From Streptomyces piniterrae (GTDB taxonomy: Bacteria > Actinomycetota > Actinomycetes > Streptomycetales > Streptomycetaceae), in contig NZ_SUMB01000004.1 of assembly GCF_005048155.1 (NCBI RefSeq), forward strand, positions 434,001 to 498,000: a stretch of 64,000 nt of DNA. The letters run 5' to 3'. Positions 1 to 14,583 of this stretch are shown one piece after another. How positions within the stretch are numbered: the first letter of the stretch is position 1; each line of letters starts with the position of its first letter. Made by a program: the position numbers and the translations under genes. Under the pieces are notes generated by a model. That model did no database searches. It was given only the letters and a program-made list of their open reading frames with translations, and was not told the DNA's origin.

Positions 1-3000
1 TCGATGTCGGGGGCCCGGTTCTCCAGGCGGGCCGTGTAGAACTCCAGCAGCTCCTGCTTCTGGATCTGCGGAGCCCAGCCGTCGTTCACCGCATGGTGCA
101 TGCACCAGCAGACGATGTGGTCGTCATCGCCGATCCGCACGACGGTCACCCGTACAAGCGGATCGCGGGCGATGTCGAAGACCCAGCGCATGGCGGAGGT
201 GACGGCCGCACCCGCCGCGGTCTCCGGGGCATCCTCGCCCGAGACATCCAGGTACGTGAAGAAGTCGCCGAGTTCGGGCCGGATCTTCAGCCCGGATCTG
301 CCGTCGGTCTCGACGAGATTGGATCGCAGCACCTCGTGGCGCCGCGCCAGGTCCTCCCAGGCCAGCCTGAACTTCTCGATGTCCAGGGGGCCGCAGTACC
401 TGGCGGCGCCGGGGAGGTTGTAGAGCGTGGTCGTCGGGTCGAGCTGGTGGTGGAACCACATGCGCTCCTGCCCGTACGACAGCACCGGCTCCCCGCCCGG
501 GACGATCGGCGGCAACTCGGCGTCGTCGGGCACCTCGGGGACGACCGGGGCCGTCGGCGCGGCCGGGGCACTGGGCGATTCCGGCGCGGGAGGGTGCGGC
601 ACCCGGTCGTGAATGGCTTCCGCGAGCGCGCTGACGACGGGGTGGTCGTAGATGTCCGCCATCTTGAGCCGGACCCCGTGCTGCTCTCGTACCAGCGCCA
701 GGAGCTGGACGGCGATGACGGAGTTGCCGCCGATGGAGAAGTAGTCCGCGTCGGCCGGGACCTCATCCGCGTGCAGCAGCTCGACGAGGGTCTCCCGCAG
801 CCAGGCCAGTACGGTCCCGGATTCCTCGGTCGGTTGCCGGCCGGGTGCGCTGACCGACTCCTCGGGTGCCGGAGAGGGCGCTGGAGACGGAGCTGGTGCC
901 GGAGCTGGAACTGGAGCCGGTACGGGAGCTGGCGCCGCTACCAGAGCCAGAGCCGGTACCGCAGCCGGCACCGGAGCAGCAGGCCGATGCGGCGCTTCGT
1001 CGAAGGACAGCACCTCGCCCAGTGGCCTGGCCCAGCAGCGCACGCCGGTGAACGGATGGCCCGGCAGCGGAACCCGGCCCGCCGAAGGGTCGGCCCGCAG
1101 CATCGACCAGTCCAGGGCGACGCCCGCCTCGTACAACCTGCCCAGCAGCTCCAGGACGGCGGCGTCGGGGTCGGCGTCGGCGGCACCGGGCCGCAGACGG
1201 AACACGCGGGCGTCCGCGCGGTCGTGGAGATGGGCTGTCAGCCGATCGCTGATCTCGCCACGGGACGCCAGCTCCACGAACACCACGGGTCCGTCGGCGA
1301 GTTGCTCGTCCGCCGCCGCGTGGAGCTGCTCCACCCGCAGCGGGTCGCCCGCCACCGCGGGGTCCTGCCCGCTGCGTGCGCGCCGCAGCGTGGCGGTGTC
1401 CTCGGCGCTGAGATCGCCCCGCAGGTACCGGGCGGTGTAGCGGGAGATCCCCGAACTCATCAGCCCGTCCGGCGAGACGCCGGCCCGGACCAGCCGCTGG
1501 TACGTCGCGAGCTGTCGGCCGACCATCGCGGCACAGTCGGCCGGTGCGGGCAACTCCTCCGGCAACTCGTCCGACACCTCGTCCGGCAGCTCGGCCGGCA
1601 ACTGATCGCGTGGCTCGTCGGGTGTGGCGTCCGCGGAGAGCAGGAAGACCACCCGAGGTGCGGCCATGGAGTCGGTGCCGGCCGCCTCGGTCGCCTCGCC
1701 CGCCTCGGGCCGGCGCCAGGTGACCTCGGCGGCCAGGCGTGCGGCGAGCTCGGACGTGTCCCGGGCGACCACGGACGCACGGTAGGCGTCATGGTCCCGG
1801 CCCTCGTTCAGCGTCCGCGCGACATCGGCCAACGGGTGTGCGGTGTGGCGCAGTTCGAGCGACAGCCGCTCGCACTGGGCGAGCAGATCCGCCCGGCTGC
1901 GGGCGGACACCGCGACCAGCTGCGGTCTGCTGACGGCGGGGCGTACCGGGGCGGTCGCCGGGGGCTGCTCCACCACGCAGTGCGCATTGACGCCGCCGAG
2001 GCTGAACGAGCTCACGCCCGCCCGGCGTGTCTCGTCGTCCCACTGCTCGAGCGAGGTGACGACCTCCAGGCGGGCGCCTTCGAGATCGACCTCGTCGGCG
2101 GGCTCCTCGAAGTGCAGCGAGGGATACAGCTCACCGTGGTGCACGCTGAGTACCGCCTTGACCAGCCCGGCGATTCCCGCGGCGTGGTCCAGGTGCCCGA
2201 TGTTGGTCTTGACCGAGCCCACCTTCACCGTACGGTCGCCGTCGGGACGGGCGAGGGCCAGGCCCTCGGCCTCGACCGCGTCGCCGAGCCGGGTGCCCGA
2301 ACCGTGTGTCTCGATGTATCCGGCGGTCGCCGGGTCCAGCGAGGCACTGCCCCACGCCTTGGTGATGACCTGGGCCTGCGAGCGGGCATTCGGTGTGCTG
2401 ATGGTCGCGGAGTGCCGGCCGTTGTGCACCACGGCGCTGCCGCGGATCACGGCATGGATGAACGCACCCTCCGCCAACGCCCGTTCCAGCGTGGTAAGGA
2501 CCACCACCGCGCCGCCCTCGCCCCAGCCCGCACCGTCCGCGGCACGGTCGAACGCGCGGGACCGGGCGGTGGGCGAGGCGATGGCGGGGAAGTCGGCCAA
2601 TGCGGCCACCGGCGGCACGATGTGGCGCAGGCTCACCCCGCCCACGACGGCGTGGTCCGCGTCGCCGTCGCGGAGTTCACGGCATGCCTGGTGGACGGCG
2701 ACGAGTGAGCCGTTGCAGCCGGTGTCCACGCCGTAGCAGGGGCCGGTAAATCCGAAGAGGTGGGAGATCCTGGACGGCAGGGCGGCGGGGATGTTTCCGT
2801 TCATGCCGAGCGTGCCGTGCTCGCGCACCAGAGGTGCGTAGCCGTTGTTCGGCGAGCTGAAGATCACCGCTGTCCGGCTGTCCCGGAGCCCGGACGGGGC
2901 GTATCCGGCGTTCTCCAGCGCCTCCTGGGTGAGCTGGAGTGCCAGCCGGTGCTGCGGGTCGGTCACCTCCGCCTCCCGCCGGGACAGCCCGAAGCGCTCG

Positions 3001-3224
3001 TGGTCGAAGAGGTCGATCCGCTCCAGGTAGCCCTGCTCCGGATAGTCCTGCCGGGGATCGAGCCCGGTGGTCCGAATCCGTTCCGGAGGGATCGGACGCA
3101 CCGAGTCCCTCCCCGCCCGCAGGTTCGCCCGGAAGGCGGCGAGGGAATCCGCCTGCGGGAATCGCGTGGCGATGCCGATCACCGCGATGGCCGGTCTGCC
3201 GTGTGCCACGCCCGTACCGCTCAT
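1..3224 (-). CDS. Hybrid PKS-NRPS: KS, remnant AT, ACP, condensation domain (3' end outside window)
   Basis: About 1,074 residues are visible and the gene continues beyond the left edge. A ketosynthase (residues about 10-430) has its active Cys170 in DTGCNGS (usually DTACSSS), His307 in ETHGSGT and His344 in NIGH. The following 200 residues align to the acyltransferase linker, but the GHSxGE active site reads SSGISRY (590-596), so the nucleophilic serine is glycine; the middle of the AT is missing and only its last part (DW...RVPLPGHPF) remains. After a Pro-Ala-rich linker (about 746-782) comes a carrier domain with phosphopantetheine Ser832 in IGGNS. A condensation domain then starts near residue 905 and reaches its HHAVNDG motif (1040-1046). 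The start ATG has GAGGTGAGGTGA just upstream. No ketoreductase is seen in the visible part. The module needs a trans-acting acyltransferase or direct transfer from the FkbH-type ACP. Product unknown. Confidence 0.9.
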   Translation of the reverse strand, partial: MSGTGVAHGRPAIAVIGIATRFPQADSLAAFRANLRAGRDSVRPIPPERIRTTGLDPRQDYPEQGYLERIDLFDHERFGLSRREAEVTDPQHRLALQLTQEALENAGYAPSGLRDSRTAVIFSSPNNGYAPLVREHGTLGMNGNIPAALPSRISHLFGFTGPCYGVDTGCNGSLVAVHQACRELRDGDADHAVVGGVSLRHIVPPVAALADFPAIASPTARSRAFDRAADGAGWGEGGAVVVLTTLERALAEGAFIHAVIRGSAVVHNGRHSATISTPNARSQAQVITKAWGSASLDPATAGYIETHGSGTRLGDAVEAEGLALARPDGDRTVKVGSVKTNIGHLDHAAGIAGLVKAVLSVHHGELYPSLHFEEPADEVDLEGARLEVVTSLEQWDDETRRAGVSSFSLGGVNAHCVVEQPPATAPVRPAVSRPQLVAVSARSRADLLAQCERLSLELRHTAHPLADVARTLNEGRDHDAYRASVVARDTSELAARLAAEVTWRRPEAGEATEAAGTDSMAAPRVVFLLSADATPDEPRDQLPAELPDEVSDELPEELPAPADCAAMVGRQLATYQRLVRAGVSPDGLMSSGISRYTARYLRGDLSAEDTATLRRARSGQDPAVAGDPLRVEQLHAAADEQLADGPVVFVELASRGEISDRLTAHLHDRADARVFRLRPGAADADPDAAVLELLGRLYEAGVALDWSMLRADPSAGRVPLPGHPFTGVRCWARPLGEVLSFDEAPHRPAAPVPAAVPALALVAAPAPVPAPVPAPAPAPSPAPSPAPEESVSAPGRQPTEESGTVLAWLRETLVELLHADEVPADADYFSIGGNSVIAVQLLALVREQHGVRLKMADIYDHPVVSALAEAIHDRVPHPPAPESPSAPAAPTAPVVPEVPDDAELPPIVPGGEPVLSYGQERMWFHHQLDPTTTLYNLPGAARYCGPLDIEKFRLAWEDLARRHEVLRSNLVETDGRSGLKIRPELGDFFTYLDVSGEDAPETAAGAAVTSAMRWVFDIARDPLVRVTVVRIGDDDHIVCWCMHHAVNDGWAPQIQKQELLEFYTARLENRAPDI

Positions 3225-3251: not shown

Positions 3252-5147
3252 TCAGAGCTCGTATGTGGCCGGTGGGGCGGGTTCCTGGCCCGGTGCGCGC
3301 TCGCCCAGGCGGTCGGCGATCCGCTGCGCCTGGGCGGCGATGGTGATGTGGTCGAACAGCTCGCCCACCCGCAGCGCCCCGGGCCATCGCTCGTCCAGCC
3401 TGTCGTGCAGGTCGATGACCTTGATCGAACTCCCACCGACGGCGAAGAAGTTGTCGTCCGGGGTCGAGTCGGAGTGCCCGAGGACCTCCGCCCAGATCCG
3501 TCCGACGGCGCGCCGGTGCCCGCTCCAGTCCCCGCCCGCGGTGCCCCCGGAGGCCTGCCGGTCTGTCGGGATCAGCGTGCGGAGCGCGGCCCGGTCCACC
3601 TTGGTGCTGCGGTCGAGCGGCATGTGGTCGACCGGTACGAACAGGGTCGGTGTGGCCTGCTCCATCAGTCGGCCTCGACAGTGTTCCCGCAGCTTCGCGG
3701 CGTCCAGTGGCCCACTGCCGGGTGTCGGCAGTACGAAGGCGATGACCTGCGGCTCGTCCTGCCCGGCAGGTTCGCAGACCACCACGGCCTGCTCCACGCC
3801 CGGATGGCGCTCCAGCACGCTCTCGATCTCGCCGAGTTCGATCCTGGCACCGCGGATCTTGGTCTGGTCGTCCGTTCTGCCGTGGTAGTGCAGCGCGCCC
3901 CGCTCGTCGACGCTGGCGATGTCCCCGGTGCGGTAGAGGCGCCCGCCCGGCCGCCCGTACGGGTCCGCGACGAACCGCTCGGCGGTACGGGCCGGCTGGT
4001 TCGCGTAGCCGAGTGCCACGAGGGAGCCGCCGACGTAGAGCTCGCCCCGCTCCCCGGCCGGGACTTCGCGCAGCCGCTCGTCCAGTACCAGGGTCTGCGT
4101 TCCCGGCCAGGGCCGCCCGATGGGGATACGGTCCCGGGACGGGTCCGGATCGATCTCCACCGTGCAGGCGATGGTCGTCTCGGTGGGCCCGTACTCGTTG
4201 ACGAACCGGATCCCCGGCAGTCGCTCGTTGTGCGCGCCCACCAGCTGGGGGGTGGGCGCCTCACCCCCCACGACCACCACCCGCAGGGTGTCGGGCAGGC
4301 CGCCGGGATCCTGGAGCACCGCCCGGTAGTAGGAGGGAATGTTGAACAGGTGGGTCACACGGTGTTCCCTGGCCAGCCGGGCGAACTCCGCCACCTGCAC
4401 GAGCTGTCGGGGGTCGGGGAGCACCAGCGTGTGACCGTCGGTGAGCGACCAGAACATCCCGCCGAGAATCCCGTCGAAGGACAGCCGCAACGCGATCAGG
4501 AAGACGGAGCGCTCGGTGCCGTACACCGACCCCCGGCAGCTGATGGACTCCGCGAACTGGCCCCGGCTGACCAGCACGCCTTTGGGCACACCGGTGGATC
4601 CCGAGGTGTAGGCGACGTAGGCGGGGCTCTGCTCGGGGACCGGTGGGTACGGGTCGGTGAGCAGCTCCTGGCCCGCCTCGACGAGCCGCGTCAGAGGGAG
4701 GTCCGCCGCGTCCACGACCGTCGGCGGGGCGGGCATCGCCGAGAGCGCGGAGGCCGGCACGGCGTCGCCGCCCTCGCTCAGCACCACCGCGCAGTCGACG
4801 TCCCGGCACAGCGCCTCGAACCTCCCGACGGGCAGGTCCGGTTCCAGGACCGCCCAGGTGGCACCGGTGCGCAGTGCGGCGAGCATGGCGATCACGGACA
4901 GCGCGCTCTGCTGCGTCCGGATGCAGACGACCCGTCCCGGCCGCAGCCCGTGCTGCCACAGCAGTCGCGCAAGACCGGCCGAGGCATGGGCGAGATCGCG
5001 GTACGTCAGCGAGACCCCGCCGATGATGAGCGCGGTCGCCTCGGGCGCCCTGACCACCTGGCTTCGGAAGGCGGCCCACACCGGCCGTACCTCCGCGGGG
5101 GCGTCCGCGGGGGCGAACTCATCGGTGGCACCGGGATGTCGGGTCAT
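3252..5147 (-). CDS. NRPS adenylation-PCP didomain protein
   Basis: A 631-residue stand-alone A-PCP protein that activates an amino or other carboxylic acid as the AMP ester and loads it on its own carrier domain. Adenylation cores are clear: AYVAYTSGSTGVPKG (about 177-190), NEYGPTETT (318-325), GELYVGG, LYRTGD (404-409) and the A10 lysine in STKVDR (Lys516). The carrier domain has DDNFFAVGGSS with phosphopantetheine Ser574. The A4 region reads SFDGILGG, which keeps the Asp that usually binds the amino group of an alpha-amino acid, but I cannot read the substrate. The start chosen is the ATG 35 bp after the upstream gene; an in-frame ATG at 5192 would overlap that gene. With no condensation or thioesterase domain it probably feeds the KS-ACP-C protein encoded directly downstream, or carries an amino acid for the acyl-CoA dehydrogenase. 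Confidence 0.9.
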   Translation of the reverse strand: MTRHPGATDEFAPADAPAEVRPVWAAFRSQVVRAPEATALIIGGVSLTYRDLAHASAGLARLLWQHGLRPGRVVCIRTQQSALSVIAMLAALRTGATWAVLEPDLPVGRFEALCRDVDCAVVLSEGGDAVPASALSAMPAPPTVVDAADLPLTRLVEAGQELLTDPYPPVPEQSPAYVAYTSGSTGVPKGVLVSRGQFAESISCRGSVYGTERSVFLIALRLSFDGILGGMFWSLTDGHTLVLPDPRQLVQVAEFARLAREHRVTHLFNIPSYYRAVLQDPGGLPDTLRVVVVGGEAPTPQLVGAHNERLPGIRFVNEYGPTETTIACTVEIDPDPSRDRIPIGRPWPGTQTLVLDERLREVPAGERGELYVGGSLVALGYANQPARTAERFVADPYGRPGGRLYRTGDIASVDERGALHYHGRTDDQTKIRGARIELGEIESVLERHPGVEQAVVVCEPAGQDEPQVIAFVLPTPGSGPLDAAKLREHCRGRLMEQATPTLFVPVDHMPLDRSTKVDRAALRTLIPTDRQASGGTAGGDWSGHRRAVGRIWAEVLGHSDSTPDDNFFAVGGSSIKVIDLHDRLDERWPGALRVGELFDHITIAAQAQRIADRLGERAPGQEPAPPATYEL

Positions 5148-5181
5148 CGCAGCCTCGCTTCTGTGTCGTTTCCCGTGCCGG

Positions 5182-6231
5182 TCATGCCGCACCGGCGATC
5201 ACGCGCGTGTGGCCTGGGGCCTTGGGCAGCGGGCGCTCCGGGTGCACGGTGAGCACGAGGCGGTCCTCGTCGGTGACCGTCGCCTCGTAGCCGGCGAAGC
5301 GCATCATGACCAGCATGTTCCGGTTGGCCTCGGTCGGGATGAAGTGCGCGACGGGGCGCCGGCCGGCCGTCAGGGCCTGCTGGATCAGATGGTGCAGCAG
5401 TACGCTCCCCGCACCGCGCGAGGCGACTCGGCAGGACATCAGCATCAGCCGCAGGACCGAGTCCCGCCCGACGAGTTCGGTGACGGCCAGGCCGATGGTC
5501 CCGTAGTCGCCGAAGCGGTCGCGGAGCGTGGCCAGCAGCACCTGATGGTCCGGTGCGGAGCTCAACCTGCGCAGTTCGTCGATGCCGTAGGTCAGTCCTG
5601 TGCTGTTGAGCTGGTGCGTACGGACGGTCAACTCGCTGGCCCGGGACAGGTCTTCCTCGGTGGCCGGGCGCACCTCCATGACCAGGTCGAGCGAGTCGAG
5701 GAACGCCTGGCGTCCTTCGGTGAACTCCTCCTCGGCCTCCTGGCGTTGCCACTCGGCCTGGTAGAGTCGGCGTCGCCCGGCGGCCTCCGCGGTGATGTGC
5801 GCGGGCCGGAACTCCCGGTATTCCGGCAGCTGTCCCACCTCCGCCGCCGTATAGCAGCGGACCATGGGGAGTTCGCTGGCGACCTCCGCCCGCTCCACCG
5901 GGTCGTTGTCGACGAACGCGATGGTGTCCAGACCGATGTTGAGGGCCTCCGCGATCCGGCGCACCGCACCGGACTTGGCGCCCCAGCCCACCTGCACCGC
6001 GCAGAACCAGTCGGCCAGCCGGCGTTCCGTCAGGTGACGCCGGGTGACACTGCGTTCCCCACGGCTGGCGGCGGCATGCAGGATGCCGCGACGGTCCAAC
6101 TCGGCCAGGGTGTCCAGCGCCGAGGGGAAGGGGGCGGGATCGTCGCCCTCCAGCACCACCCCGTCCCACAGGGTGTCGTCCAGGTCCCACACCAGGCACT
6201 TGACGGTGGGCGCGCCCGCTGCCGCCGTCAC
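5182..6231 (-). CDS. FkbH-like HAD/GNAT protein (glyceryl-ACP formation)
   Basis: A 349-residue FkbH-family protein. The N-terminal HAD domain begins with KCLVWDLDDTLWDG, carrying the DxDxT nucleophile motif (Asp16, Asp18), followed by IAFVDNDPVER. The C-terminal half is a GNAT-like domain. Known family members dephosphorylate 1,3-bisphosphoglycerate and put the glyceryl unit on a dedicated ACP, the first step to hydroxymalonyl-, methoxymalonyl- or tetronate-type C3 units. The GTG start overlaps the upstream acyl-CoA dehydrogenase stop by 4 bp (GTGA), so translation is probably coupled. The ACP is two genes upstream in the same operon. Substrate assignment is by family; the product class is inference. 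Confidence 0.9.
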   Translation of the reverse strand: MTAAAGAPTVKCLVWDLDDTLWDGVVLEGDDPAPFPSALDTLAELDRRGILHAAASRGERSVTRRHLTERRLADWFCAVQVGWGAKSGAVRRIAEALNIGLDTIAFVDNDPVERAEVASELPMVRCYTAAEVGQLPEYREFRPAHITAEAAGRRRLYQAEWQRQEAEEEFTEGRQAFLDSLDLVMEVRPATEEDLSRASELTVRTHQLNSTGLTYGIDELRRLSSAPDHQVLLATLRDRFGDYGTIGLAVTELVGRDSVLRLMLMSCRVASRGAGSVLLHHLIQQALTAGRRPVAHFIPTEANRNMLVMMRFAGYEATVTDEDRLVLTVHPERPLPKAPGHTRVIAGAA

Positions 6232-7466
6232 GACGACTCTCCGGGAAGTCGGGGCCCGTCGGAGCGGTCCGTGCCGCGCGCCGCACCACCGAAGCGCCGC
6301 AACAACCTCTCGGCTATGTGAAGTTCGGACACTTCCTGTGCTCCTTCGATGATCTCCATGACCTTGGCGTCCCGGAAGTGCCGGCCCGCCCTGCTGTCGG
6401 GCGCGCAGCCGGCCGAGCCGAGCACCTGCACGGCGGCGCGGCTGCCCGCCGCCGCAGCGGAAGCGGCCGCGTACTTGGCCATGAGCGTCTCCGACACCCC
6501 GTGCCCCGGGCCCGAGGCCCGTGCCTCCGCGGCCCTGCGGGCGAGTTCCCGGGCCCCGGCGGCGTCCACCGCGGCCCTGGCCAGCAGCGACCGGACCAAC
6601 TGGTGGTCCCCCAGGGGGATGTCGCCCTGCCGACGGACCGCGGCGTGGGTGGCGGCGTCCTCGACGCACGCCTCCGCCATGCCCACGCATCCCCAAGCCA
6701 CCGTGAACCGGCCATGATCGAGCGCGGTGCCGGCGACATGAGAGAGCCCCAGGCCTGGAGGGGCGACGAGCTGACTCCGGGGCACCCGCACGCCGTCGAG
6801 GGACAGATGGGCGATCCGGGCACCCCGCATACCGAGCTGGCCGTTCACCGGCTCCCGCTCGACACCGGCGCGGTCCGCGTCCACGAGCACGGCGGCCGGC
6901 TTTCCCTCGTACTTCCCGAGGACCAGGAACACTTCGGCGACCGCACCGAAGGTGACCCACCTCTTGTGGCCGCTCACGACCAGTTCCTGGCGGTCCGACC
7001 GGCCCGACGCCTCGATACGGGTTTCCACCGAACCCAGCGCGCTGCCGGCGCCCTGCTCGGTCACCGCGAAGCCGGCGGTCAGCCGGCCGCCGGCCAGCAT
7101 GGGCAGCCAGTCGGCCCGCTGCGCCTCGGTCCCCCAGCGCAGCAGCGCCGCCGCGACCATGCCCTGTACGGTCAGCAGCCCGCGCAGGGCGCTGCACTCA
7201 CCACCGATCCGTGCGGTGATCTCCCCGAGCGTGAGCGGATGGAGGCCGACGCCCCCGTACCGCTCGGGCAGGTCCGCGGCGAGCAGTCCCGACGCGGCGA
7301 ACTCCTTGCGCACTGAATCGGGCAGTCCGCCGTCCTGGTCCCAACCAGAGGCGCAGTCACGGGCGTTGGCCGCCCAATCGGCCGCGACCCGGGACAGACC
7401 CACGGGCTCCACGGGCGGCAGATCCGTCGTCACAGCGTCGGTCCCGCTTTCAGGAACCCTCGGCAT
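6228..7466 (-). CDS. Acyl-CoA dehydrogenase (FkbI-like, probably acting on an ACP- or PCP-bound substrate)
   Basis: A flavin-dependent acyl-CoA dehydrogenase of 412 residues with the usual three domains. Visible landmarks are the AGFAVTEQGAGS flavin-binding segment, SGHKRWVTFG, a central helical part (DHGRFTVAWGCVGMAEACVEDA) and the C-terminal VLGSAGCAPDSRAGRHFRDAKV...IEGAQEV. In FkbG-K type pathways the homolog oxidises glyceryl-ACP; in zwittermicin-type pathways similar enzymes oxidise carrier-bound seryl groups. The ATG used has ACGAGGCACA before it and overlaps the ACP gene by 17 bp. A GTG at 7433, 17 bp after the ACP stop, is a possible alternative. No 3-hydroxyacyl-CoA dehydrogenase or O-methyltransferase partner is seen in the window. 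Confidence 0.85.
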   Translation of the reverse strand: MPRVPESGTDAVTTDLPPVEPVGLSRVAADWAANARDCASGWDQDGGLPDSVRKEFAASGLLAADLPERYGGVGLHPLTLGEITARIGGECSALRGLLTVQGMVAAALLRWGTEAQRADWLPMLAGGRLTAGFAVTEQGAGSALGSVETRIEASGRSDRQELVVSGHKRWVTFGAVAEVFLVLGKYEGKPAAVLVDADRAGVEREPVNGQLGMRGARIAHLSLDGVRVPRSQLVAPPGLGLSHVAGTALDHGRFTVAWGCVGMAEACVEDAATHAAVRRQGDIPLGDHQLVRSLLARAAVDAAGARELARRAAEARASGPGHGVSETLMAKYAAASAAAAGSRAAVQVLGSAGCAPDSRAGRHFRDAKVMEIIEGAQEVSELHIAERLLRRFGGAARGTDRSDGPRLPGESS

Positions 7467-7746
7467 GTGCCTCGTATGCCTCATGTGCCTCATGTGCCTC
7501 TCCCGACTCGGGCGCTCCGGTCTTGCGCCGGACGAACTCCGTGATGCGGTTGGCGGTCCTGAAGCTGTCCAGATCCAGGTCCTCGACCCCGACGGTGAGG
7601 CCGAAGTGGCTCTCGACGAAGGTCACCAGCTCCAGTGCGAACAGTGAGTCGGCGAGGCCCTGGGCGAAGTAGTCGTCGTCCGGCTCCACCTGCCGACGAA
7701 GAGCCGCGCTCAGAAAGCCGGTGATCTGCGAGGTGATGTCGTTCAT
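7450..7746 (-). CDS. Free-standing acyl carrier protein (FkbJ-like)
   Basis: A 98-residue discrete carrier protein. The phosphopantetheine serine is in GLADSLFALELV, and the following VESHFGLTVGVEDLDLDSFRTANRI is typical of carrier proteins that accept glyceryl units from FkbH-type enzymes. The ATG overlaps the stop of the KAS III-like gene (ATGA). The last 17 residues are an unusual Glu-Ala-His run (EAHEAHEAYEAH) encoded by imperfect 9-bp repeats, which also supply ribosome-binding-like GAGG motifs for the next gene. Most likely it carries the C3 unit made by the FkbH protein and oxidised by the dehydrogenase. Confidence 0.9.
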   Translation of the reverse strand: MNDITSQITGFLSAALRRQVEPDDDYFAQGLADSLFALELVTFVESHFGLTVGVEDLDLDSFRTANRITEFVRRKTGAPESGEAHEAHEAYEAHAEGS

Positions 7747-8756
7747 GCCGTGTCCTCCTGTGAACCTGTCCCGACCAGCAGCAGACTCCAGGCGGCCACC
7801 GGGCTCACGTTGATCAGGACCGCAAGGTCGCCGGGGGCCAGCTCCTTGCGGTCGAGTGCGGTGTGGAGATTGAGGAAGACGTCGTTGGGACCGAGGTGTC
7901 CGTACTGCCGGAGGTTCTCCCGGCACGCCGGCAGCAGTTCGATGTCCAGGGAGTCCTCGAGGAAGGTGAAGCTCCCGGCGGACAGGTTCTGGCTGACGAA
8001 GCCGGCGACGTCCCCGCGGCCGATTCCGTTGCGCCGCAGCAGGTCGTCCAACATCGCGGAGAGGTGGTTGCGCGTCTCCATGGCCAGGCGGAAGGAGTAG
8101 GTGCTGGGCTCGGTGCACTGTTCGCGCCACTGAGCGGTGGGGCGGTCCCGGTAGTCGATGTGGAAGAGGTCCCAGTAGCGCCCGTTGGTCAGCTGCGCGA
8201 TGTCGAGTACCCGTATCCTCCCGCTGCGGGAGAGCAGCAGTGCCTGCCCGCCGTCGCCGTTCACCGTGACGGGGTGGCGGTAGCGCAGGGCGGCGGCCGG
8301 CTTGCTGCCGTGCACGACCAGGACATGGTCCAGCGCAGGGTCCGCGGCCAGCAGTCCGCGGGCCGTCAGCAGGGCCGGGGTGATCGAGACACAGCCGAGC
8401 CCGCCCACCGAGAAAGTGGTGGCGTTGTCGGCGCCGAGCAGGTGCTGGAGCCTGGTCACCTCGGAGCTGAGGAACCTCTCCTGGACCCGCGACTCCACCA
8501 TCACCAGTGCGCCCAGGTCCCGGGCGTCGAGCCCCGCCTGTTCGAGCGCCCGACGCGCGGCGCGTTCCGCGAGAGTGACCGAGCTCAGCGCGTCGTCCGC
8601 CCGGACCGTGTCGATGCCCAGACCGTCGCATGTGCGGCGCTCGGTCTCGTCGAGCGTCCGTACGTCGGTGATCGGCAAAGTGTGCTCGGGCAGATACCAG
8701 GCGGCGCTGCGGATGGCGACGGGTGCTGCGCCATGCTGGAGGGCCTGCTGGGACAC
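7743..8756 (-). CDS. KAS III-like acyltransferase/condensing enzyme with altered catalytic residues
   Basis: A 337-residue FabH-fold protein. The nucleophile cysteine is present in SVGGLGCVSITPALL. At the usual HQAN site the sequence is FVSQNLSAGS, so the catalytic His is Gln, and the usual GNTSAAS site reads GHLGPND, so the Asn is His. Decarboxylative Claisen chemistry by the standard Cys-His-Asn triad is therefore doubtful. Relatives with altered triads transfer acyl groups to alcohols or amines, and KAS III-like proteins also pair with FkbH-type ACPs in tetronate pathways. The gene starts with GTG after AGAGGGA, 41 bp downstream of the short peptide ORF, and overlaps the ACP gene by 4 bp. 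Exact reaction unknown. Confidence 0.85.
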   Translation of the reverse strand: MSQQALQHGAAPVAIRSAAWYLPEHTLPITDVRTLDETERRTCDGLGIDTVRADDALSSVTLAERAARRALEQAGLDARDLGALVMVESRVQERFLSSEVTRLQHLLGADNATTFSVGGLGCVSITPALLTARGLLAADPALDHVLVVHGSKPAAALRYRHPVTVNGDGGQALLLSRSGRIRVLDIAQLTNGRYWDLFHIDYRDRPTAQWREQCTEPSTYSFRLAMETRNHLSAMLDDLLRRNGIGRGDVAGFVSQNLSAGSFTFLEDSLDIELLPACRENLRQYGHLGPNDVFLNLHTALDRKELAPGDLAVLINVSPVAAWSLLLVGTGSQEDTA

Positions 8757-8797: not shown

Positions 8798-8878
8798 TCA
8801 GCCGATCTCTGCGACGTACCAGGCCGAGGTGGGTTCGACACGGCGCGGTGCGCCGGTGAAGGTGACCGCGTTGGCCAT
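8798..8878 (-). CDS. Short peptide ORF heading the biosynthetic operon (26 codons)
   Basis: A 26-residue open frame beginning MANAVTFTGAPRR and ending TSAWYVAEIG. It has an ATG with TCTGGAGGCCCT in front (GGAGG, 6-nt spacing), the best ribosome binding site of the operon, and about 84% G or C at third positions. It is the first frame after the predicted promoter and ends 41 bp before the KAS III-like gene. It could be a leader peptide controlling translation, a scaffold peptide, or a small RiPP-like precursor with an aromatic WYV core. No modifying P450, cyclase or peptidase is seen in the window, so the RiPP idea is weak. I do not recognise the family. Confidence 0.5.
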   Translation of the reverse strand: MANAVTFTGAPRRVEPTSAWYVAEIG

Positions 8879-8916
8879 AGGGCCTCCAGATGAACGCATT
8901 CCTCGGGACGTCCCGA

Positions 8917-8959
8917 ATTCTCCCGAGGTCAACTGACGCCGAACTGACGCAGCGCTGAC
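8917..8959 (-). promoter_or_regulatory. Putative SARP-dependent promoter of the biosynthetic operon
   Basis: Read on the minus strand, three heptamers GTCAGCG, GTCAGTT and GTCAGTT begin exactly 11 bp apart (+ coordinates 8953-8959, 8942-8948, 8931-8937). Eight bases after the last comes GAGAAT (8922-8917), a -10-like hexamer. SARP activators typically bind direct heptamer repeats at 11-bp steps with the last one 8 bp from the -10 box. A perfect 14-bp palindrome (TCGGGACGTCCCGA, 8903-8916) lies just past the -10 and may bind a second regulator. Confidence 0.6.
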
Positions 8960-9041: not shown

Positions 9042-9066
9042 GTCACGTCACGTCACGTCACGTCAC
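9042..9066. repeat. GTCAC pentanucleotide run, five copies
   Basis: Five perfect GTCAC units in tandem at the end of the next gene; the last copy contains its stop codon. Probably a slippage-prone microsatellite. Confidence 0.9.
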
Positions 9067-14472: not shown

Positions 14473-14528
14473 TTCCAGCGGCTCTTCCAGCGACTCTTCC
14501 AGCGCACGTTCCAGCGGTTCTTCCGGCG
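14473..14528. repeat. Five direct repeats TTCCAGCG at exact 12-bp steps
   Basis: TTCCAGCG begins at 14473, 14485, 14497 and 14509, and TTCCGGCG at 14521, with 4 variable bases between. The array lies between the divergent SARP and MMPL genes. The period of 12 is near one helical turn, so it may be a regulator array, but 11 is usual for SARP sites. Confidence 0.85.
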
Positions 14529-14583
14529 CCGGTGCCAGCGAGAGTGCCAGCCACCGGTCAGCGACGCGCACGAGGGTGCGGTC

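Follow-up and report, generated by a model that had tools for sequence, protein, structure and literature searches.

One of the questions raised by this window, a stretch of 64,000 nucleotides of Streptomyces piniterrae DNA analysed as a whole, is which regulator governs the biosynthetic operon that lies at its start. A triple GTCAG repeat stands before that operon, and a SARP gene is found further upstream within the same window. Is the repeat a genuine SARP-type promoter, and is the nearest SARP the one that would read it? The reading favoured here, at a probability of about 0.82, is that positions 8917-8959 form a SARP-activated promoter driving a PKS/NRPS operon and that the cognate activator is most likely a second SARP, P0003, encoded outside the window at C22:359303-360112 (hereafter the C22:359 SARP), and not the SARP within it (Table 1).

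The first step concerns the architecture of the element itself. Direct reading of the minus strand from 8959 to 8917 gives GTCAGCG CTGC GTCAGTT CGGC GTCAGTT GACCTCGG GAGAAT, so that the coordinates, the 11-bp steps and the 8-bp gap to GAGAAT described in the sequence-only reading are all exact. SARP promoters are characterised by direct repeats placed 11 or 22 bp apart and by an 8-bp interval between the 3' repeat and the -10 (PMC10936776; PMC7040171). The three GTCAG units share a register of exactly 11 bp, the 3' repeat sits 8 bp from GAGAAT, and the element precedes the first gene of a PKS/NRPS operon which, in two related genomes (G001 and G002), adjoins a SARP cluster. The earlier proposal of SARP-type spacing ahead of a biosynthetic operon is thus borne out, and the assignment of 8917-8959 as a SARP-type promoter, at which a SARP would be expected to bind and activate, is well supported.

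With such an arrangement a small SARP would bind neighbouring GTCAG repeats along a single helical face, replacing a good -35 element. By analogy with AfsR (PMC10936776), SARP protomers would occupy successive major grooves at adjacent repeats, overlapping the -35 region, and would bring RNA polymerase to the weak putative -10, GAGAAT, thereby driving transcription of the ~21-kb minus-strand operon; the third GTCAG unit could add affinity or accommodate a further protomer.

The operon that would be activated in this way consists of genes separated by short gaps or overlapping, in the order KASIII-like protein, acyl carrier protein (ACP), acyl-CoA dehydrogenase, FkbH, A-PCP and KS-carrier-C, followed by NRPS modules that include a thioesterase. 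A product name was sought in the literature, where no matching system was found. The short leader ORF that separates the promoter from the KASIII gene has a good ribosome-binding site in this genome; it is not conserved, being truncated in G001 and in another relative, G005, and lacking its start codon in G002, and is probably a gene remnant. The lack of conservation speaks against either a precursor of a RiPP or a conserved leader peptide, and both readings were rejected.

Table 1. Features of the window (window numbering) and the sister promoters of the C22:359 SARP cluster.
Feature	Position	Strand	Remarks
SARP repeat unit 1, distal	8953..8959	-	GTCAGCG; direct read
SARP repeat unit 2	8942..8948	-	GTCAGTT; direct read
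SARP repeat unit 3, proximal	8931..8937	-	GTCAGTT; direct read
8-bp spacer, proximal heptamer to -10	8923..8930	-	GACCTCGG; direct read
Putative -10 hexamer	8917..8922	-	GAGAAT; TCGGGAGAAT invariant across four genomes
26-aa leader ORF	8801..8878	-	MANAVTFTGAPRRVEPTSAWYVAEIG; first ORF past promoter, before KASIII gene
KASIII-like beta-ketoacyl-ACP synthase	7743..8756	-	First operon gene; weak FabH/PRK06840-like match
Acyl carrier protein	7450..7746	-	PF00550
Acyl-CoA dehydrogenase family protein	6228..7493	-	PF00441/PF02771/PF02770
FkbH-domain protein	5182..6210	-	HAD-IIIC type; TIGR01686, 238 bits
Adenylation-carrier (A-PCP) NRPS protein	3252..5192	-	PF00501/PF13193/PF00550; TIGR01733 over cut-off
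KS-carrier-condensation PKS/NRPS protein, start part	1..3224	-	Operon runs past window to ~C22:421.8k
Window SARP P0002	13584..14408	-	BTAD + Trans_reg_C; rejected as cognate regulator
CTGGAA array, 12-bp steps	14473..14514	-	Upstream of window SARP; separate from GTCAG regulon
Sister GTCAG promoter			Heads NRPS gene; C22:359 SARP cluster
Sister GTCAG promoter			Heads ACP/ketosynthase/ketoreductase operon; ORF after -10 ACP-like, read by eye
Sister GTCAG promoter			Heads ornithine-cyclodeaminase-like/PLP-enzyme/MMPL genes; C22:359 SARP cluster
Sister GTCAG promoter			Heads MbtH-like/ABC operon; MbtH assignment by eye

Could such a repeat have arisen by chance? A scan of the window allowing up to two mismatches returned 8917-8959 as the sole match, itself with 0 mismatches, against an expectation of 0.15. 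Across the 8.49-Mb genome pattern searches, on which all of the genome-wide counts rest, found three exact GTCAG triples and only six instances in which two exact units are followed at 8-bp spacing by NANNNT (the pair-plus--10 pattern); all six lie on C22 between 312 and 443 kb, within one 130-kb stretch, and the control pattern read backwards has no match genome-wide. Another exact triple, at C22:348473-348499, precedes an NRPS gene and is placed 8 bp from a -10-like AATGAT. The genome scan that the sequence-only reading had recommended therefore gave a pattern confined to one region and not one scattered widely by chance. The repeat at 8917-8959 is not a chance occurrence.

The element has also been kept in other genomes. 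Five relatives, G001-G005, were found through KASIII-like proteins of 91-95% identity, and the promoter is present in G001 (L012), G002 (L013) and G005 (L025). All three GTCAG units are retained in G002 and G005 and two in G001, which has lost unit 1 and keeps the GTCAG of unit 2; the segment around unit 3, GTCAGTTG, is invariant in these genomes and in S. piniterrae, as is TCGGGAGAAT, amid spacers and upstream flanks that vary. It might still be argued that the repeat is an accident or a decayed relic devoid of function in this strain, given that the operon is displaced here from its SARP cluster and that the leader ORF downstream has decayed in relatives. Such a reading is extremely unlikely, as this strain retains all of the repeats, the spacer length and the -10 in intact form, other genomes conserve them against diverged flanks, and the probability of an exact match by chance is very low. 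The link between site and operon is not universal: G003 (L014) and G004 (L015) carry the same operon lacking the GTCAG promoter, with unrelated DNA upstream of KASIII and the leader replaced. These two promoter-less operons offer a natural comparison for regulation.

Two smaller features neighbour the element. A 14-bp palindrome, TCGGGACGTCCCGA, occupies 8903-8916, immediately downstream of the -10 and at or close to where transcription is expected to start, and is not conserved in G002 or G005. Upstream of the promoter, on the plus strand at 9042-9066, there is a short GTCAC tandem just past the end of an ArsR-like gene.

Which protein, then, would read the repeat? The SARP encoded within the window had been proposed as binding it and activating the operon, and the gene does specify a genuine small SARP lying ~4.6 kb upstream of the promoter on the same strand. 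This model is nonetheless very unlikely, and the proposed link fails on three counts: the gene is not conserved with the operon, its recognition helix is divergent, and it has an unrelated repeat of its own. With respect to conservation, the window SARP and the intervening ArsR-like and F420-type oxidoreductase genes are absent within 10 kb upstream of the operon in all five relatives. No ortholog was found in G001, G002 or G003, where the best matches reach 44-46% and fall in AfsR-sized ORFs, and yet G001 and G002 retain the GTCAG site. Orthologs do occur in G004, G005 and G011 (67-69%), located elsewhere; in G004 and G005 the ortholog stands beside a divergent MMPL gene on a contig other than that of the operon, and GTCAG sites were not found there. 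As for recognition, Arg92 of AfsR reads the T of the repeat through a base contact. The recognition helix of the window SARP, QKYVSG, has Gly at this position and Lys at that of Thr88 in all four orthologs. Finally, the CTGGAA array in its own promoter region recurs ahead of the orthologous SARP gene in G004 (C50:19492-19521) and in G005 (C21:307088-307117). Its 12-bp period is unusual for a SARP, and a SARP whose recognition helix is divergent may be the protein that reads this candidate site. An imperfect GTCAG pair (9/10) at 14546-14577, ahead of the MMPL gene, was taken as chance, as shuffles gave 0-2 such matches and the pair overlaps the end of the 12-bp array. The nearest-regulator guess is corrected accordingly, and the nearby SARP would be a mistaken target for manipulation.

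The C22:359 SARP fits the site better. This protein of 270 amino acids has a BTAD match of 131.8 bits, over cut-off, and aligns to EmbR over residues 5-251 and to AfsR over 16-249, giving the OmpR-type DNA-binding plus BTA composition of a small SARP; it keeps the Arg92 equivalent, as do all of the homologs examined. Its gene is surrounded by four other GTCAG promoters, each heading a biosynthetic operon, and exactly one ortholog is found in every one of the five relatives (60-68%), always beside GTCAG promoters. The motif is thus present at the promoters of the SARP's own cluster and the association is conserved. From this pattern the C22:359 SARP appears to control its own-cluster NRPS, ACP/ketosynthase/ketoreductase, PLP-enzyme and MbtH operons, all of which it would switch on in addition to the operon in the window. 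A site just upstream of the SARP gene itself in G003, G004, G027 and G211 suggests that this type of SARP is also autoregulated. The commonest form of the motif in the regulon is GTCAGCG with NANCAT, from which the GAGAAT and the proximal GTCAGTT of the operon deviate.

The association extends across the genus. Within a sample of 394 genomes, 16 have the C22:359 SARP at E<=1e-60. Twenty genomes that carry it or a homolog together contain 91 pair-plus--10 sites, of which 61 are no more than 60 kb from the SARP, where 1.2 would be expected assuming even placement; three genomes with SARP homologs (G225, G405 and G343) have no nearby sites. The spacing is strict: of 34 GTCAG pairs in six related cluster regions, 31 have NANNNT exactly 8 bp away, against 0-6 at other spacings. 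Sixteen genomes lacking the C22:359 SARP have 0-3 pair-plus--10 matches each (median <=1), apart from one, G015, with 16 scattered GTCAG pair sites, several of them sharing a tail like CCCCTGGCACTGT; these probably belong to a different regulon. In seven genomes where the sole KASIII is a more distant one, the count is 1-5 each.

Other SARPs, PapR2 among them, also recognise repeats of the GTCAG type (PMC7040171), and hence the motif cannot by itself name the regulator. The site might be used by another winged-helix regulator with 11-bp repeats, whether PhoP, AfsR or a further SARP, given that the boxes of all three share a TCA core (PMC7040171) and that this genome encodes ~15 BTAD-domain proteins. 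This is nevertheless quite unlikely: the Pho box is GTTCACC (PMC7040171), as against the GTCAG repeats found here, and PhoP and AfsR should be widespread regulators, whereas the GTCAG pair-plus--10 is rare and confined to one region of this genome.

The preferred assignment to the C22:359 SARP has to account for the distance of 83 kb that separates it from the operon in this genome. The operon and the cluster of the C22:359-type SARP are immediate neighbours in G001 and G002; in G003 and G004 the operon shares a contig with the SARP, at ~40 kb or less, and in G005 the two are on different contigs. Here they are separated by ~45 kb of DNA (C22:377-421 kb) that is without counterparts in G001 or G002. 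The best reading of this synteny is that a composite cluster under SARP control has the operon as one of its limbs, and that this limb has been displaced by ~45 kb here; operon and SARP cluster would form one composite unit in relatives that has since been separated in S. piniterrae. Operon proteins are 82-95% identical between genomes as against mostly 50-90% for those of the SARP cluster, which indicates unequal rates of evolution in the two limbs. A more tentative proposal, to which we give somewhat less than an even chance, is that one SARP governs two biosynthetic lines, the conserved operon and the NRPS/ketosynthase cluster that changes faster; their output would be either two co-produced compounds or a single composite molecule, and the regulatory connection would have survived the relocation of the operon in this genome and in G005. 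In practical terms, one regulator would be expected to switch on both the PKS/NRPS operon and the NRPS/ketosynthase cluster, and the rule of a GTCAG pair, 8 bp and NANNNT predicts much of the regulon of the C22:359-type SARP in ~20 Streptomyces genomes.

How does this promoter compare with known systems? The sites of PapR2/RedD-type SARPs, with the consensus GTCAGSS (PMC7040171), likewise present a GTCAG core in heptameric direct repeats with 4-bp spacers between the -35 and -10 of biosynthetic promoters; unit 1 (GTCAGCG) fits this consensus but units 2 and 3 (GTCAGTT) do not, and the candidate regulator here is a different SARP. In the cryo-EM structure of AfsR at the afsS promoter, direct repeats with the same 11-bp period likewise stand in for a poor -35, and 8 bp separate the 3' repeat from the -10 (PMC10936776), although the afs box comprises two TTCA-type repeats as opposed to three GTCAG units. 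The proteins are related through their OmpR-type and BTA domains, but AfsR is a large NOD/TPR protein whereas the candidate here is a small SARP in which the Thr88 equivalent is Ala. At the level of the cluster, pristinamycin is reportedly the product of a composite antibiotic cluster governed by the SARP PapR2. Here too a single pathway SARP appears to control several operons that belong to one composite cluster, with the difference that in S. piniterrae one limb is separated by ~45 kb of unrelated DNA.
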